Positions 10,416 through 18,943 of a stretch of DNA of 64,000 bases are shown here, in pieces. Position 1 is the stretch's first letter. The number at the start of each line of letters is the position of its first letter. The notes under the pieces are model-generated. The model saw nothing but the letters and a program-made list of their open reading frames with translations. It made no database searches and was not told where the DNA came from. Position numbers and translations under genes: made by a program. This DNA comes from an uncultured Dehalococcoidia bacterium (GTDB lineage: Bacteria; Chloroflexota; Dehalococcoidia; Lucifugimonadales; UBA3495): NCBI GenBank assembly GCA_951813535.1, contig OX638345.1:4146608-4210607 (forward strand), read 5' to 3'.

Positions 10416-12638
10416 TCAGTCGTTTCCCACCTCGAGCGCCTCCGCCACCAGCTCGTGCTCGTCCTCGTCGTCTGGCTCGTCGGCGACGGGCTCGGGCGGA
10501 TGCAGCGGCAGATCGATAGTCATCTCGGTGAACTCGCCCGGCTCGGATTGGACCAGTATCTCCCCGCCATGCCGGCGAACGATGTCGTTGCAGATCGACA
10601 ACCCCAGGCCGGTGCCCTTGTCCGTGGGCTTGGTGGTGAAGAACGGATTGAACATCTTTTCGATAACTTCCGGCGGCATGCCCGTACCGTTATCGCGGAT
10701 GCGTACGTGGATTCTATCTTCATCGTACTGAGTGGACAGCCATAGCGTGGGCGAGTAATCAGACCCGCCTCCGTCTCGCTCCATGGTCATGCGCTTTTCG
10801 TTGGTTGCGTAGCAACCATTGTTGACGATATTCAGGAAAACGCGACCCAGGTCCTGCGGATTGACGTCGATCTCTCCCATCGAGTCGTCGAAGTCGTACT
10901 GTAAGTCCAGCTGGAAGTTGGGATCCGTCGCCCTGGTGCTGTGATAAGCCAGGCGGGCGTGTTCATCCAGCAGGTTGTTGATGTTGGTGGGCTGATGACC
11001 GACAGATTCGCGGCTCATCATCAGCATGTCGTGCACGATACGGTTGGCCCGGTCTCCGTGGCTTCGAATCCGCTCCAGGTTCCCGCCCAGCTCGTTGAAG
11101 ATGTCCTCAAGCAGGTCCTGCTGCTCTTCGTTCAGTTGGCCGTCCTCGCTCTCGTCCAGCGTTTCCTTCAACTCCTCCAGCAGCTCTTCCGATACCTCAG
11201 AGAAGTTTTTCACGAAGTTCAACGGGTTCCGGATTTCGTGCGCCACTCCGGCGGTGAGCTCACCCAGAGCGGCCAGTTTTTCCCGCATTACGATCTGGCC
11301 CTGCGCGGTGTTGAGGTCGGTCAGGGCCTGTTCGAGTTCGCCGTTCTTGCCCTGGAGTTCTTCCGCCAACTCCTCCACCAGATTCAGCCGCTGGATTTCG
11401 ATGGCGTGCTGACGGAAGATCTCCAGCGCCGCCGCCATTTCGGCCACTTCATCGCGGCCCCGGATTTCCGCCCGCGCTTCCAGGTCGCCGCCGGCCATCT
11501 GCCGCATCCACTGCGACAGCATCTCGATGCGGTGCAGGAGAACCCGCCCCACAAAGAGCCACGCGATCAGGATCGCGCCCACGATGCTGAAGCCGGTGAT
11601 GGCCAGCAGCAGCGTGCGGCCCGTGAATATCGCCTGGTTCGAGGCCTCGGTAGCAACCTCCGCGCTGTTCCTGGCGGTTTGGACCAGGAACTCCATTTCG
11701 CCAAGCAGCAGTACGGCAATGTCATGGTTGTTGCCCAAAAGGACGACCTGGAGGTCCGCGAGTTCGAGCTGACGCTTGCGCAATTCGAAACCATTCTCGT
11801 CACCGGCTCCCAATTCCAGCAGGCGCGAGAAGAGGGGCGTCAGTTCCGAGTGGATTTCCGTGCCGGACAACCGGCTCAGGTTACGATTGATGTGAAAGAC
11901 CGATGACTCGAACCGTTCCCGCAACGGCTCGATCAGAGACGGATCGGAAACCGTGCTCGCGCTGGCCAGAATTTGCGTTGCTATGTTGACGTTGCTCTGC
12001 AGTTCGGAAAGGTAATGGAACCGGGTGAGCTCGTCCTCCGCTCGATATGCCACTTCCTCCGCCGGGGGTTCTCCCAGTTTCCGGTAACCGGTAACCGTGT
12101 AAAACAGTTGATCGTCGCGCGCCGGAGCGACGATGTGGTCGAGCTGAGACCTGAGTTCGGTCAGCTCGGTTTGCAGCCCGTCTGATTGATCCTCCAGAGC
12201 AAACCTCTCCGAAATTCCTTCCTTAACGTCACCGATATTGAGCAACAGGGTGTCGGAGTACGCCAATATGCGGACGAACTGTTCTTTCTCGGTCTCATCG
12301 GCGCGACTCTCCAGGACCGCCAGTTGTTGCTCAAACGCCTGGTGGGCTTCGTCGATGCGTGCGCTGACCACGGCGACTTCATCCGCGTTGGTGGCCGTGG
12401 GCAGCGCCGCGGCGTCCGCCACCAGGGCGCTGCTGAATTGAGCGACGTCAAACGCGGCGGCCAGGTCCGGAACGCTGCGCTCGTTGACCCGGTTCTGGGC
12501 ATCGCCCACCTGGTCGAAGGAAAACCAACCAACCAGCGCCGCCGCGAAGGTAAGACAAACCGCGCCCCCCAGCGCCAGGTACAGCTGGGAAGAGATGCGA
12601 TAACGGAGTTCGAGAATTTTGATCAGTGTTGCCATCAT
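10416..12638 (-). CDS. Transmembrane sensor histidine kinase with HAMP domain
   Basis: 740 residues. Transmembrane helix 1 is near residues 17-38 and helix 2 near 333-360, enclosing about 295 residues of mostly helical extracytoplasmic sensor. HAMP follows (about 356-412), a short coiled coil, then HisKA with GVAHEIRNPLNF (phospho-acceptor His near 466). The HATPase domain has the N box NIVNNGCYAT, RDNGTGMP and GTGLGLSIC. The acidic C-terminal tail is rich in Asp/Glu. Its start overlaps the stop of the upstream ligand-binding lipoprotein by 4 nt, implying that protein is its sensor input. No separate response regulator follows; the receiver-PP2C protein nearby is the best candidate partner. 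Confidence 0.9.
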   Translation of the reverse strand: MMATLIKILELRYRISSQLYLALGGAVCLTFAAALVGWFSFDQVGDAQNRVNERSVPDLAAAFDVAQFSSALVADAAALPTATNADEVAVVSARIDEAHQAFEQQLAVLESRADETEKEQFVRILAYSDTLLLNIGDVKEGISERFALEDQSDGLQTELTELRSQLDHIVAPARDDQLFYTVTGYRKLGEPPAEEVAYRAEDELTRFHYLSELQSNVNIATQILASASTVSDPSLIEPLRERFESSVFHINRNLSRLSGTEIHSELTPLFSRLLELGAGDENGFELRKRQLELADLQVVLLGNNHDIAVLLLGEMEFLVQTARNSAEVATEASNQAIFTGRTLLLAITGFSIVGAILIAWLFVGRVLLHRIEMLSQWMRQMAGGDLEARAEIRGRDEVAEMAAALEIFRQHAIEIQRLNLVEELAEELQGKNGELEQALTDLNTAQGQIVMREKLAALGELTAGVAHEIRNPLNFVKNFSEVSEELLEELKETLDESEDGQLNEEQQDLLEDIFNELGGNLERIRSHGDRANRIVHDMLMMSRESVGHQPTNINNLLDEHARLAYHSTRATDPNFQLDLQYDFDDSMGEIDVNPQDLGRVFLNIVNNGCYATNEKRMTMERDGGGSDYSPTLWLSTQYDEDRIHVRIRDNGTGMPPEVIEKMFNPFFTTKPTDKGTGLGLSICNDIVRRHGGEILVQSEPGEFTEMTIDLPLHPPEPVADEPDDEDEHELVAEALEVGND

Positions 12639-13927
12639 TTTTCTTCGCTCCCCAATACATCCTGCGGCAAGACATCCAGGGGAATGTACTCGCCATCTTC
12701 CCCGATCATCGTCAGGAAGACCGCGTCAGACCACTGGTTGCTCTCTTCCTCGCTGTAACGCAGTTCCACGCCGTTCATGTCAATTGGCTGGGCGTTGCGG
12801 AGCACGCTCAAAAAACAGGCGCGGGTCAAATCGTCGCCGCATCGCTCCAAACCGGCAATTGCCAGGCGACCCGCCATGTACCCTTCCAGGGACACGAACC
12901 CCGGCTCCACCCGAGGGTCGTATTCTGCCAACGCTGCCTGGTAGGAGGCTACAACCGGGTTGGACGTATCCGTAGGGAACGGGACGACCTGGGTGACAAT
13001 CACGCCCTTGCCGCCGGTACCCAGCTCCTCGGCAAGGGCGTTGCTTCCGACAAAAGAAACGGTCATAAACACGGGGTTCATGCCTATTTCCCTTGCCCAG
13101 GCAATCACCGCAGCCACCGGTTGGTAGGCGCCGATCACGATCACCGCCTGGGGTTGCCCTTTGCGCACGTCGAGCAATCCCGTTTTCACGGCGGTGGTAT
13201 TTCTCTGGTACAGACCGACGGCCACCGGGTCCAGGTAACGCCGGTGCAGCGCGGCGCTTGCGCCGTTGAACCCGGCTCTGCCGAAAGAGTCGTCCTGGTA
13301 CAAGACCGCGATGCGCTCGATGCCAAGGTCCTCGGTCAGGCGTTCCACCATCTCCTCGGTTTCCTGGTTATAGGAGGCCCTCAGGTTGATTACGCTGCGG
13401 AGTTTGGGGTCCCGCAGAAAAGCGGCTCCGGTAAAGGGCGCGATGTAAGGCACGCCAGCCGATTCTGCCACCGGCACGGCGGAACGCGATGTCGGTGTGC
13501 CAACGGCGCCAATTAACGCGAAGATATCCTCGTCTTCGATGAGTTCCGTTGTATTGACAATGGCAAGCTCCGGCTCGTAGGTGTCGTCTCGGGTCACCAA
13601 CTCCAGCCGGCGTCCGTTCACCCCGCCGGCCCGGTTTACCTCGGCAAACGCGGCTTCGATCCCGTGGTTCATGCCGATGCCGAGCTGCCCGGCGGGGCCG
13701 GTGAACGCGGCCGATTGCCCGAACACGATGCGGTCTTCGAATACCCCCGGATCCTCGCGATCCGCCGTGGGAGACATGACCATATGCCGCGGCATAGGCG
13801 TGGGTACGACGGCCTCCGCAACGGCGTTGGCGCCGGCGCTGGCGTCGGGACCGCATGCCGCCAGCACGAAAAGGCACGCGACCGCGATGGCTGAGAATGC
13901 CTTGGCGAGTGGGTTGGTCCAGGACAC
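12635..13927 (-). CDS. Periplasmic-binding-protein-like lipoprotein (Leu/Ile/Val-binding type)
   Basis: 430 residues. An N-terminal lipoprotein signal ends at LFVLAAC-G (Cys near residue 24), then a low-complexity linker, then a type I periplasmic-binding fold. Key segments: IVFGQSAAFTGPAGQLG, NGRRLELVTRDDTYEP, ALIGAVGTPTSRS, and RSVINLRASYNQETEEMV. These match the branched-chain amino acid/urea-binding family. There is no ABC permease or ATPase next to it. Instead its stop overlaps the histidine kinase start by 4 nt, so it probably presents a ligand to the kinase. The start is GTG with AGAGG 7 nt upstream. Confidence 0.88.
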   Translation of the reverse strand: MSWTNPLAKAFSAIAVACLFVLAACGPDASAGANAVAEAVVPTPMPRHMVMSPTADREDPGVFEDRIVFGQSAAFTGPAGQLGIGMNHGIEAAFAEVNRAGGVNGRRLELVTRDDTYEPELAIVNTTELIEDEDIFALIGAVGTPTSRSAVPVAESAGVPYIAPFTGAAFLRDPKLRSVINLRASYNQETEEMVERLTEDLGIERIAVLYQDDSFGRAGFNGASAALHRRYLDPVAVGLYQRNTTAVKTGLLDVRKGQPQAVIVIGAYQPVAAVIAWAREIGMNPVFMTVSFVGSNALAEELGTGGKGVIVTQVVPFPTDTSNPVVASYQAALAEYDPRVEPGFVSLEGYMAGRLAIAGLERCGDDLTRACFLSVLRNAQPIDMNGVELRYSEEESNQWSDAVFLTMIGEDGEYIPLDVLPQDVLGSEEK

Positions 13928-14045
13928 CGACTAGCCTCTGATCTCACCGGATGACGGCGCTGCGGCGTGGAACCGTGGAAACAACAGCCTGGCAGCTACG
14001 CGGCGAATCGACGGTGCGGCGCAGTCGGGACCGCGATCGTCACAT

Positions 14046-14459
14046 TCACTCCGTCTTGAGCTTGGTCATTGCCAGCTTGTTCTTGCCGTCCTCTCTGCTG
14101 TACCGCATCTCGTCCATCATCGTTCGTACGATATGGACCCCCAGCCCGCCAATGGGCCGTTCCCCCAGCGGCGCCGAGATGTCAGGCGAGTCCAAATCTT
14201 CCAGCGGGTTGAACGGCCGGCCGTCGTCGGCAATCTCCACGGTCACTCTTTCCGAGTCGGAAACCAGCGATATTTCAATATCCCCGGTTGCGCCGCTGTA
14301 ATTTACGATGTTGACGCCCAATTCTTCCAGAACAAGGTTCAATTTGAAAACCAGATCCGGAGGCCAGTTGTCTCGCTCGGCGAATTCCTCGACCGCCGCC
14401 GGGATCAGCTCAAGCTGCTCATGGCTCGGCGCTATTTTCAAATCCACCCGGGCGGTCAT
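14046..14459 (-). CDS. Anti-sigma factor serine kinase, RsbW-like ATP-binding protein
   Basis: 137 residues, a stand-alone GHKL ATPase. The N box is LVLEELGVNIVNYS (Glu plus Asn for Mg-ATP), the G1 box is IADDGRPFNP, and the G2 box is GGLGVHIVRTMMDEM. RsbW/SpoIIAB-type proteins phosphorylate a STAS antagonist and sequester a sigma factor or another target. The start overlaps the PP2C stop (ATGA), and the STAS gene is the first gene of the run, giving the full partner-switch trio. No sigma factor gene is in the window. Confidence 0.85.
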   Translation of the reverse strand: MTARVDLKIAPSHEQLELIPAAVEEFAERDNWPPDLVFKLNLVLEELGVNIVNYSGATGDIEISLVSDSERVTVEIADDGRPFNPLEDLDSPDISAPLGERPIGGLGVHIVRTMMDEMRYSREDGKNKLAMTKLKTE

Positions 14460-15631
14460 GGCACCGTCTCACTGCGGCGGAAAATGAGGCAGGTAATATC
14501 ATCAAACTGCGCGACATTCCCCGCAAATTGGTTCACGGCATCAAAGACGGCCTGCGTCGCCGTTTCAGCCTCGCGGTGCGGCTGCGCTGTGAACACCTGC
14601 TTCAGCCGCTCCATCCCGAACTCCTCGGCGCCCTCGTTTACGGCCTCCGTAACACCGTCAGTGTAAAAGACAACGGTGTCGCCCGCGGCGGTGGTAATCG
14701 TTCGTTCGTCGTAATCCATGCCCGGCATGACACCCAGCGCGATCCCGTTTGTGCCGGGCAACACCGTGGAAGTGCCGTCAATGTGAACGATGAGCGGCGC
14801 GTTGTGGCCTCCATTGGCGTAGGTCAGTTCCCCGGTGGCCGGATCGTACACCGCGTAGAACAGGGTGACGAACATCATGGCGTCGTTGTCGTCATACAGC
14901 AGGTCGTTGACTTCGGTGAGGACTTCGCGTGGGGACTTGAGCCCCATCGCCGCGCTCTTGAGGAGCGTCCGGCTGGCCATCATGAACAGCGCGGCGGGCA
15001 CTCCCTTGTCCGAGACGTCCGCCACGGCCAGCCCAATTCGACCGTTGTTCAAATATATGACGTCGAAGAAGTCGCCCCCCACAACCCGGGCGGGGGTCAT
15101 GCTGCCGTGTATCTGGAATCCGGGTTGACGCGGGAACTCCGTGGGCAGGATCGACTGCTGCATCTTGTTGGCGACGTCGAGCTCGTTTTCCAACGCCACC
15201 AGCCGTTCTCGCGACGCCGTCGCCGCTCTCCACGCTTCGAGGTTGGTCAGGGCCCGCTCGATGGTGATGCGCAGGTCTTCAAAATCGACCGGCTTGGTGA
15301 CGAAATCGAACGCGCCCAGGTTCATGGCGGAGCGAATATTTTTCATATCGCCATAGGCGGAGATGATTACGGCGTGTATGTCCGGCGCCACCTCCGGTAT
15401 ATGCGACAACAACGCCAGCCCATCCATCTGAGGCATGTTGATGTCGGACAACACCATATCGATTTCGTCGTCCTGATTCAGCGTCTCGAGCGCCTCCACC
15501 CCGTTCTGCGCAAAGACGAACTGATAACGCCCCGAGCGAATCGCCCGCCGCATCCGCTGTAGTACCAGCGGCTCCAGGTCAGGCTCGTCGTCGACCACGA
15601 GGATCCGGTATGGCCCTGACGTATCTGCCAT
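14456..15631 (-). CDS. Response regulator with PP2C-type phosphatase output (RsbU/SpoIIE-like)
   Basis: 391 residues. N-terminal receiver: acidic pocket VVDDEPD, phospho-acceptor Asp63 in LSDINMP, Lys in FVTKPVDF. A coiled linker around residues 130-165 (RERLVALENELDVANKMQQ) joins it to a SpoIIE-type PP2C domain with GGDFFDV, AVADVSDKGVPAALFM, YANGGHNAPL and FYTDGVTEA metal motifs. Such proteins dephosphorylate a STAS antagonist when the receiver is phosphorylated. I prefer ATG 15631, right before the receiver, to an upstream ATG at 15670. Overlaps the RsbW-like gene by 4 nt. Confidence 0.9.
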   Translation of the reverse strand: MADTSGPYRILVVDDEPDLEPLVLQRMRRAIRSGRYQFVFAQNGVEALETLNQDDEIDMVLSDINMPQMDGLALLSHIPEVAPDIHAVIISAYGDMKNIRSAMNLGAFDFVTKPVDFEDLRITIERALTNLEAWRAATASRERLVALENELDVANKMQQSILPTEFPRQPGFQIHGSMTPARVVGGDFFDVIYLNNGRIGLAVADVSDKGVPAALFMMASRTLLKSAAMGLKSPREVLTEVNDLLYDDNDAMMFVTLFYAVYDPATGELTYANGGHNAPLIVHIDGTSTVLPGTNGIALGVMPGMDYDERTITTAAGDTVVFYTDGVTEAVNEGAEEFGMERLKQVFTAQPHREAETATQAVFDAVNQFAGNVAQFDDITCLIFRRSETVP

Positions 15632-15707
15632 GATTCCATCCCTGACGGGCGATCTACGCCCGCTCACCATGTATTTGGGTCGTGAAGCCGGCTATGCTTC
15701 AAAAAGA

Positions 15708-16046
15708 TTAACCTTTCAGCGCGGCGATAGCTTCTTCCTGGGACGGATGGATGGCGATGACCTGGTCGAAACCGCTGATTTCAAATACTTCCCTTACGGT
15801 TCCCGACAGTGCGCACAGCGCGAAGCCGGAATTCTGTCGCTGCAAGGTCTTTGCGGTTTGCAGAACCACCCGAAGGCCCGCACTACTGATGTACGTCAGC
15901 TTCTCCATGTCGAGGATAACGACCTGGTCGGTAGGTTCGATGGCTGCATCCAGATCTTCGAGGAAGCGCTGCGCGTTGGTGCTGTCGACGCGTTCGGCAG
16001 CCTCAATTATCAGAGTGCCCTGATTCCTCTGGAAATCAATTGCCAT
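15708..16046 (-). CDS. STAS-domain anti-sigma factor antagonist (RsbV/SpoIIAA-like)
   Basis: 112 residues, a single STAS domain. The phosphorylation loop reads TYISSAGLRVVL, with Ser54/Ser55 where SpoIIAA has the phospho-serine. It should be phosphorylated by the RsbW-like kinase and dephosphorylated by the PP2C protein. The start at 16046 is set by AGGAG 8 nt upstream and by where the domain begins. A longer frame reaching 16193 has no such site and looks noncoding. It heads the signalling run, 76 nt before the receiver-PP2C gene. Confidence 0.88.
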   Translation of the reverse strand: MAIDFQRNQGTLIIEAAERVDSTNAQRFLEDLDAAIEPTDQVVILDMEKLTYISSAGLRVVLQTAKTLQRQNSGFALCALSGTVREVFEISGFDQVIAIHPSQEEAIAALKG

Positions 16047-16398
16047 GATGCTGTCTCCTGAATTTCGCTGGCAGTTATTGGAGACACTGGCGACCGCGTC
16101 AACGCTCGCCAATGGCTCATGCCGGTTTTCGGTGAATTGTATCATCGAATCGGATTTTGTGTAGCCTGTTCCCAAACGGCTTATCGCACACATGTCTGGC
16201 CCGACCCCAACATTGTCAACATTATCGTCCTTCCTTACCCACCCTTTAACAAGCGATTGTCAGCTGTGCCACTTCAAGCGCTTCGCTCCCGTCCTCGCAC
16301 TTCGCCTGCTGACTCTGTGCGTTGACGGAACCGTCAGCGGCAAATAGACTGCGTTCAATTCAAACGGCTTCAAGGCTCCGAATCGGAGGAGAATCACG
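16047..16398. other. Intergenic region between divergent STAS and UGSC genes
   Basis: 352 nt without a credible gene. It should hold the promoters of both the minus-strand signalling operon and the plus-strand UGSC gene. A minus-strand TTGACA (16214-16219) and a minus-strand TACAAT (16136-16141) occur but are not correctly spaced with each other, so I do not call a promoter. The GGAGGA at 16385-16390 is the ribosome-binding site of the UGSC gene. Confidence 0.5.
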
Positions 16399-18120
16399 AT
16401 GAAGTTGCAGATCATGTCCCCGGCCGCGGCCCGCGTTGACTTCAAGGTGCCGCCGGCCCCTCGCCTGGAAACCCTCGAAGGCAAGACCATCGGCCTCTAC
16501 AACAATATGACCGGCGGAGCCGACGTGGCCGTCAACCGTGTCGCCGAGCATCTCGGCCGCCGCTTCTCCAACGTTAACTTCGAGACCTACGGCGGCAATC
16601 TGCGCGACGGCCGGCCAGCCCTGAGCCGCGGAGTGCACATCGACGATGAGGAAGCCGCCCGCATCGCCAACGAGGTGGATGCAATGGTGGGCGCCGCTGC
16701 GCATTGAGGGGGCTGCACGTCGTGGCTTGCCCACGACATGGTTGCAATGGAAAAGGCCGGCGTGCCCGCCGTGGGCATCGCCGCGCGCAGCTTCGCCCGG
16801 GCCTGGCAGTCCTGCGTGGATGGCTGGGGACAGCCCGCCACCGCCTTCGTCACCATCCCCCACGCCTGCACCGGCCAGCAGCCCGACTACATCCACGGGA
16901 TGGTGGACGAGCAAATCGACAACATCATCCTCGGTTTGACCCGGATGTCCGCGTCGGCCGACCTTTCCGGCGGCGCCAACGGCCACAGTGAGACCGACGT
17001 ATTCACCGTTGAACTGGACGACACGCCCCTGGGCCTCGACGCGGTAAATCGTTTCATGGAAGAACGCGACTGGAGCGACGGTATGCCCATCGTGCCGCCC
17101 ACTCCCGCTGCCGTCGAAGCTATGCTCAAGGGCACCCGCCGCGACCCGCAGGACGTGGTCATTGTGATGGAGCCGGGGTTCGGCCTGGCCACCGTCGAGA
17201 AAATCGCCATCAACGCGGTGATGGCCGGCTGCCAGCCCGCGCAGTTCCCCATCCTGCTGGCCGCCCTCGAGTGCATCGCCCAGCCCGAGATGAACCACCG
17301 CGATATGCAGGTGTCCGGCCACACCGAGGCCCCGCTGATCCTGGTCAACGGTCCCATCGCCGCCAAAGCCGGAATCAACTACGGCACGTCGGCCATGGGC
17401 CCGGGCGTGGTCAACAAGGCCAACACCGCCATCGGCCGCGCCCTGCGCCTGTGCCTGATCAACATCGGCTACTGCAAGGCCGGCGCCGGCGACCCCAACT
17501 TCATCGGCCTGCCCACCAAGTTCGGCATGTGCATCGCCGAGAACGAGGAGGTCAGCCCCTGGCAGCCCTATCACGTGGACAAGGGGTTCCGCCCGGACGA
17601 GAGCGCGGTCACCGTGATCACCGTCACCGGCCCCACCGACATCCTCGACGCCGGATCCAGGGACCACAACGATACGCTGAACAACATCGCCTCCATGATG
17701 TTCTACCGTCACGCCGGCGGAGGCAGTTGGATCAAGGGCCGACAGTCTGCCCAGGTGGGGCACACCAACCAGCGGGTCGAGTACCAGAGCCCGTACCATC
17801 CCATCATGCTCAGCCCCTCCCGGGCCGTGATCCTGGCCGAGGCCGGCTTCAGCAAGCGCGCCACCCAGGAATGGCTGCACGAGCATTGCCGCGCCTCCCT
17901 GCGCGACGCCATCGGCCCGGCCGGAATGCCCACCGATGCCAACGGCAAGTGGCTCCGTCACCCGGAACTGCAGCGCCTGGCCGACGACCCCGAGGCCACG
18001 ATCCCCGCGCTGGAGGACCCGGAACAGTACCTGCTGTTCGTCACCGGCGGTTCTACCCACTACGCCAACTTCTTCTACGGCACCTACGGCATTGCCACCA
18101 TGCCCGTCGAGGACGTGTAA
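16399..18120 (+). CDS. UGSC-family protein with in-frame TGA, probable selenoprotein
   Basis: A 573-residue protein if TGA at 16705-16707 is read as selenocysteine (residue 103). The frame before it (KTIGLYNNMTGG, then ARIANEVDAMVGAAAH) and after it (GGCTSWLAHDMVAMEKAGVP) reads continuously as one UGSC-type domain. The motif is Sec-Gly-Gly-Cys, where the family has Sec/Cys-Gly-Ser-Cys. A perfect 7-bp hairpin starts 11 nt after the TGA. The N-terminal domain (about 1-195) is followed by a large second domain starting near WSDGMPIVPPTP, whose function I do not know. The ATG has GGAGGA 8 nt upstream. The sequence after the TGA has no ribosome-binding site of its own before ATG 16738. The alternative is a nonsense mutation splitting a Cys-type homologue (TGC/TGT to TGA). 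Function is unknown; a redox role is inferred from the U-x-x-C motif. Confidence 0.8.
16719..16737 (+). promoter_or_regulatory. Candidate bacterial SECIS hairpin
   Basis: GTCGTGG (16719-16725), loop CTTGC, CCACGAC (16731-16737): a perfect 7-bp stem inside the coding sequence, beginning 11 nt after the in-frame TGA. In E. coli formate dehydrogenase mRNA the SelB-binding hairpin lies at a similar distance from UGA, and bacterial SECIS elements generally follow the UGA closely. If the closing G-C pair opens, the loop begins with G, as in many bacterial SECIS loops. The structure is seen; SelB binding is inferred. Confidence 0.6.
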
Positions 18121-18149: not shown

Positions 18150-18608
18150 ATGCCGGCAATTCGGGACGAATCACGTTGGGCTGTACTTGGCGTTTTGCTG
18201 AGGAAAGACGGTTTTTCGCAAAAGGAAGCGGCACAGTTCGTCAACTGCTCCGATCGGGCGGTGAAGCAAGCCTTACGTGTCCGTGAAAAAGGCGTGCGCG
18301 AACCTTGGGTGGCGGTTGTGGCCGGAGAGGTTGCCGTCGGGGACGCGGAGACGTTGGTCAGGCGATTCGAGAATGACGGTGCGGAGCAGACCACAGCCCT
18401 CCAACGGGTGTGCAATGGTGAAATCAGCAAACTGAGGCAACACCGAGCCGGCTTGATGGACAGCAAATCCACTTTCAGGGGGATGGCGCACAAATTCGCC
18501 AAAGCGCCGAGCCCCGATTGGTCGTTCACCCCAGAGCAGGTGGAGGAAGGGATCAGCATTGCGGAAGAGGGCCTTGAAGTGGACGCTAAGACATGGCCCA
18601 GCTACTGA
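18150..18608 (+). CDS. Small helix-turn-helix protein, possible antitoxin
   Basis: 152 residues. An N-terminal helix-turn-helix is plausible at residues 22-45 (GFSQKEAAQFVNCSDRAVKQAL). The rest is charged, with no family I recognise. The frame starts 29 nt after the UGSC stop, with GGGGA just upstream. Its 3' end overlaps the ATG of a MazF-like frame by 16 nt, an arrangement common in toxin-antitoxin pairs. That position, plus the DNA-binding segment, suggests an antitoxin or autoregulator. This is inference only. Confidence 0.6.
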   Translation: MPAIRDESRWAVLGVLLRKDGFSQKEAAQFVNCSDRAVKQALRVREKGVREPWVAVVAGEVAVGDAETLVRRFENDGAEQTTALQRVCNGEISKLRQHRAGLMDSKSTFRGMAHKFAKAPSPDWSFTPEQVEEGISIAEEGLEVDAKTWPSY

Positions 18609-18943
18609 GGGGGAGATAAGATTGGGTAAATATTGAAACAGTCAGTCAGGTAGTGGGGCATGAACAGGGTAATCGTCGTCCTGCCCTGATATTGAGCAAT
18701 GATCGTTTCAACGCTGCATCGCAGTTGGTTATCGTGGCTCTGGTGGGTTCCTCCGAATCGAACCGAAGCCGGACGACAGCCGTCCAGATCCGGTCAGTGC
18801 AGATGCTAATAACACCGTCGTGGGTATTGACCGAGCAAATTCGGACGTTGTCGGCACAGCGCATGGGTGACCTGATTGGCACGATGTCAAAAGATGAGTT
18901 GGAGGTCGTGCTGGAACACGTTTTCCAGCTAATGTATCAATGA
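18593..18943 (+). pseudogene. MazF/PemK-like toxin with early in-frame stop
   Basis: The frame from ATG 18593 starts MAQLLRG, meets TAA at codon 9 (18617-18619), and continues as WVNIETV then VGHEQGNRRPALILSND, a clear MazF/PemK signature. Around the stop, GGG-AGA-TAA-GAT-TGG would read as the expected Gly-Glu-Ile-Arg-Trp if one G were added and one T removed. This points to a compensated double indel or a homopolymer sequencing error in GGGGG. A GTG at 18653 could restart translation but would omit the first beta strand. The C terminus is complete. The ATG overlaps the preceding HTH gene by 16 nt, as in TA operons. Confidence 0.65.

Follow-up and report, generated by a model that had tools for sequence, protein, structure and literature searches.

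UGSC selenoproteins were described in 2008 in the Global Ocean Sampling survey, together with a fusion of the UGSC domain to a second domain, Unknown_1 (PMC2398784, Fig. S1A). Few selenoproteins are as abundant in ocean metagenomes as those of the UGSC family, which is listed as uncharacterised in function in a 2026 review (PMC13188914). No paper on selenoproteins of SAR202 was found in the literature searched; a 2017 mBio paper on systems of tRNA-Cys was set aside, as it is not about UGA.

Here we analyse a stretch of 64,000 nucleotides (the window) from a SAR202-like member of the Chloroflexota, whose genome is assembled as one 4.38-Mb contig, and which carries a gene of this family. The predicted product resembles described members of the UGSC family (PF24696/NF041046) in the position of its selenocysteine (Sec) and in the U-G-x-C motif around it, and differs from them in having UGGC instead of UGSC and a large additional C-terminal domain. 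It also resembles the fusion of the Global Ocean Sampling survey, which joins a UGSC Sec domain to a conserved domain of unknown function in aquatic bacteria; Unknown_1 is likely the C-terminal domain of the window protein. An earlier note on this DNA, made from its letters alone, had announced a probable new selenoprotein, a claim that is not supported, since Pfam, NCBIfam and published work already name the family, and a UGSC/Unknown_1 fusion was reported in 2008. What the window gene adds is a remote link to the Sec proteins GrdB and PrdB, and a near-obligate partner domain.

The fused gene and its family

The gene is one continuous frame of 573 codons, interrupted solely by a TGA, and opens at ATG 16399, seven bases downstream of a GGAGGAG (Table 1). 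Gene callers of the ordinary type cut such genes in two at the TGA. The UGSC-family assignment of the earlier note is supported by a Pfam match well above the curated cut-off (residues 5-181 against PF24696, E = 3e-27, 96.2 bits versus a cut-off of 25). The match to the NCBIfam equivalog NF041046 falls below its cut-off (83.5 versus 125 bits), and the window gene is therefore placed in a divergent branch of the family. Searches of Rfam over the window and of PHROGs returned no match, and ARAGORN found no tRNA in the window.

Table 1. Features of the fused selenoprotein gene, in window coordinates
Feature	Position	Strand	Description and basis
Fused selenoprotein gene	16399..18120	+	573 aa, Sec at residue 103; translated with TGA = U
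Shine-Dalgarno-like GGAGGAG	16385..16391	+	Seen in the nucleotide sequence itself
In-frame TGA for selenocysteine (U103 in the motif U-G-G-C)	16705..16707	+	Homologue conservation and host Sec machinery
UGSC domain (PF24696), residues 5-181, modelled as Rossmann-like	16411..16941	+	Pfam match and AlphaFold2 model
C-terminal partner domain, 'Unknown_1'-like, residues ~205-573	17011..18117	+	Without a Pfam/NCBIfam family; next to paralogues it is encoded by a gene of its own
Bacterial SECIS-like hairpin, 7 bp, loop CUUGC	16719..16737	+	Synonymous-codon folding control and pairing across homologues

The closest homologues come from metagenome-assembled genomes labelled SAR202 cluster bacterium or Dehalococcoidia. 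A scan of genome contigs yielded 35 close orthologues (L043-L077, 67-97% identity), all of which share the layout of the window gene. The UGGC motif had been regarded as unusual; it is fixed in these 35/35 orthologues, and a paralogue and a distant homologue, one of each, have it too. Across these sequences UGGC is the clade's variant, in which the general form U-G-x-C is kept and the strict form U-G-S-C is not.

Decoding of the in-frame TGA

We regard it as almost certain, given the conserved TGA, the full host machinery and a selected hairpin, that the TGA is decoded as Sec at residue 103 by SelB with Sec-tRNA(Sec), guided by that hairpin. If the TGA were instead a true stop or a sequencing error, the locus would hold a pseudogene or two genes in one frame, the second of which could start at an internal ATG at 16738. 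However, the TGA and the UGGC motif are retained in 35/35 close orthologues from independent assemblies, which excludes an assembly error for TGC or TGT; to the earlier question of whether homologues have Cys or Sec at this residue, these orthologues answer with the Sec codon. About 30 distant fused homologues were also aligned (28-40% identity, most of them taken from 393 surveyed genomes of this class), and all except one keep the TGA, in a motif that reads UGSC, UGTC, UGAC, UGQC, UGNC or UGGC. The lone exception, L080, has AGC at this codon and an N in the next, within a damaged stretch. The coding sequence is under purifying selection before the TGA (dN/dS 0.03-0.13) as well as after it (0-0.24). 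Moreover, reading of the sequence found no ribosome site upstream of ATG 16738, and a start there would drop the motif together with half of the fold of the Sec domain. The note's description of a lone TGA at the redox position of an otherwise continuous frame, with a downstream reading that lacks its own ribosome site, thus agrees with the frame and its conservation. On these alignments, assembly error and pseudogene are excluded for the window gene, and the chance that the TGA is a stop or an error is practically nil.

One distant fused homologue outside that alignment (L131, in genome G178) has DTRSG in place of the Sec motif, with neither Sec nor Cys; judging by its sequence, the redox residue is lost in one distant lineage.

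The machinery that the earlier note predicted was recovered in full by a search of the host genome, which encodes SelA, SelB, SelD and a tRNA-Sec (66 bits, anticodon UCA), all above curated cut-offs. The genome has eight genes of the UGSC family, and every one of them contains a single in-frame TGA. Among the 393 surveyed genomes of the class, 131 contain UGSC, and every UGSC match listed, about the 150 best, has exactly one TGA. A tRNA-Sec was detected in 116/131 of the UGSC genomes versus 154/262 of the others (Fisher p = 4.8e-10, an optimistic value, as the genomes are related). The 15/131 UGSC genomes without a tRNA-Sec match count against the explanation as a whole; filters were stricter in the tRNA-Sec search, and some of the 15 genomes are incomplete. 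Genome G027, 96% complete with 7% contamination, carries at least eight UGSC genes with TGA, but no tRNA-Sec passed the search threshold there.

In principle, UGA could be read as Cys or Trp instead of Sec, through a suppressor tRNA or an altered genetic code. Two of the UGSC paralogues in the host end in frame at a TGA stop, such that UGA also serves there as a normal stop. Together with the full Sec pathway, in which the SelD gene itself has an in-frame TGA, and with the selection on the hairpin behind the UGA, this makes a Cys or Trp reading very improbable and argues for Sec. A second type of selenoprotein is also encoded in the host genome (C1:4347022-4348224; L138:2523-3725), GrdB/PrdB-like and with U-P-L-C at an in-frame TGA.

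The perfect 7-bp hairpin that had been noticed 11 nt after the TGA was found again at the same place, with arms GTCGTGG (16719-16725) and CCACGAC (16731-16737) around the loop CTTGC. Folding it, as had been proposed, gave a divided answer: its region is not unusually stable against plain dinucleotide shuffles (z = +1.26, not significant), yet it is stable beyond synonymous recodings, a control in which the codons for the peptide behind the TGA are replaced by synonymous ones drawn from the gene itself before folding. In this control, the window gene reached a z of -2.07 and 64 related homologues a mean z of -2.03. In 11 representatives, the mean z at the hairpin offset was -2.36, the lowest of all offsets, compared with -0.12 (sd 0.31) at 83 other offsets; for separate UGSC genes (n = 36, window gene included) it was -1.55. 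The folded genes are related, and these values do not come from independent samples. Two homologues with a differently paired hairpin (TTCCTGG-GTTG-CCAGGAA, pairing read by eye) gave z values of -5.4 and -5.7. Over 80 distinct sequences, 89.6% of cells are paired at the hairpin, and shifting the partner by 1-4 columns lowers pairing to 18-47%. The hairpin is under selection beyond its protein coding.

Fold and remote relatives of the Sec domain

An AlphaFold2 model built on 38 aligned homologues (pLDDT 87, pTM 0.89) shows strands and helices of the UGSC domain alternating in Rossmann order; U103 comes immediately behind strand 95-101 and ahead of helix 104-119. The domain is accordingly predicted to be Rossmann-like, with a strand-helix order other than that of the thioredoxin fold, unlike the thioredoxin fold suggested for UGSC in 2008 (PMC2398784). 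The structural matches at residues 24-193 of the model are Rossmann-like folds with Z up to 10.9, a score that identifies a common fold only. Foldseek with the whole model matched PDB entries only in part, Foldseek against a viral library found nothing, and PDB sequence searches with the protein and both domain profiles found no relative.

Profile comparison connected the domain to known Sec proteins. The UGSC profile aligned with the Sec domain of GrdB (P = 2.4e-7, 93% probability) and with a PrdB-like U-P-x-C group (P = 3.8e-5), in both cases Sec on Sec, while control profiles gave 0.37 (a Rossmann family of SDR type) and 0.35 (the protein's own C-terminal domain). The GrdB and PrdB-like profiles matched each other at 5.9e-28. 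A direct search with PF07355 (GRDB) did not match the window protein at E up to 1. From the profile similarity we conclude, with moderate confidence, that the UGSC domain and the GrdB/PrdB Sec domain are remotely related.

Alternatively, the protein could be a thioredoxin-like thiol-disulfide or peroxide redox protein, as suggested for UGSC in 2008, with a C-terminal domain that only anchors or regulates it. The U-x-x-C motif is consistent with such a role, but the predicted Rossmann fold with its structural matches, the profile similarity to GrdB/PrdB, and the many invariant polar residues of the C-terminal domain, as in an enzyme, all point elsewhere, and we consider this rather unlikely.

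The partner domain and a proposed function

Residues ~205-573 matched nothing convincing in Pfam or NCBIfam (24 homologues tested). Foldseek with this domain alone found no credible match (best E 0.77), and the top row in VIA, a class I fumarase, scored Z 5.5, within the range of chance; the absent structural match does not by itself prove a new fold. Profile comparison detected no homology to GrdE (P = 0.77). The similarity to GrdB (PF07355) and the PrdB-like group lies in the Sec domain, as a remote profile match with Sec on Sec, whereas the system differs from glycine reductase in that its C-terminal partner is unrelated to GrdE by profile and that GrdE (PF09338) was not found in the host genome.

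The seven other UGSC genes of the host are unfused, and a homologue of the C-terminal half adjoins them. In the class survey, the full-length query, whose matches lie largely in the C-terminal half, hit 131 genomes; the UGSC model also hit 131, and 129 are shared. A tree of 26 C-terminal domains clusters fused and split forms; two changes of fusion state are most parsimonious on this tree, and a single origin is also possible. In these genomes, the C-terminal domain is a near-obligate partner of the UGSC domain by co-occurrence, and we infer from this tight association and from the fusion that the two form one functional unit.

The C-terminal domain has many invariant polar residues, among them Asp227, Thr235, Asn342, Arg347, Lys374 and Glu381. 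These residues, together with a weak structural resemblance of the modelled domain to class I fumarases, would also suit an arrangement in which catalysis lies mainly with the C-terminal domain, as a lyase or dehydratase for instance, and the Sec domain acts as its redox switch or electron donor. The fumarase score is at chance level, however, no Foldseek match accompanies it, and Cys278, a possible metal ligand, is Ala in the UGTC group; we judge this arrangement distinctly unlikely.

We favour a Sec-dependent reductase whose substrate is bound by the C-terminal domain, an explanation to which, mechanism included, we give an even chance. Following insertion of Sec103 by SelB and Sec-tRNA(Sec) under guidance of the hairpin behind the UGA, Sec103 would act as the nucleophile at the start of the helix that follows the third strand of the Rossmann-like UGSC domain. 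Cys106 would be the likely resolving thiol of the U-x-x-C motif, as the model and its conservation suggest, and the C-terminal domain would probably hold the substrate through its invariant polar residues. Most likely, a small catabolic substrate of organic nature would be reduced or reductively cleaved in a Sec-dependent way, after which a thioredoxin-type donor would regenerate the enzyme from its selenenylsulfide.

Gene neighbourhoods were examined for 31 fused genes, and no gene family recurs in more than 13/31 of them; with no widely conserved neighbour, synteny does not name the substrate. Downstream of the window gene lie two AXE1-family esterases, an alpha/beta hydrolase and a MetE-like protein, and some UGSC paralogues lie near genes that, from their translated reading frames, are SDR-like, GMC-oxidoreductase-like, CoA-transferase-like or NHL-repeat-like. 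As annotated, these neighbours of the window gene and its paralogues are compatible with organic-matter catabolism. Directly behind the fusion gene (18150-18940) lies a pair consisting of an HTH-like gene and a PemK/MazF-type toxin gene, for which a search of the same site in L043, L044 and L073, the closest relatives, found no counterpart, and which, from this comparison, looks like a recent insertion. A divergent regulatory block upstream (10416-16193), kept in the closest relatives only, encodes a histidine-kinase-like sensor (named by reading its sequence), a periplasmic binding protein, an HATPase, a SpoIIE phosphatase with a receiver domain and a STAS protein.

More broadly, we tentatively raise the possibility, itself rather doubtful, that the UGSC domain and its C-terminal partner constitute a third, pyruvoyl-free branch of the GrdB/PrdB superfamily of Sec reductases, which would have expanded in marine Chloroflexota, would carry a substrate-binding domain of unrecognised fold, and would reduce or cleave poorly degradable organic compounds. 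This SAR202-like bacterium encodes eight selenoproteins of one family, and the remote GrdB/PrdB link, together with the near-obligate partner domain, gives the UGSC family a testable function.
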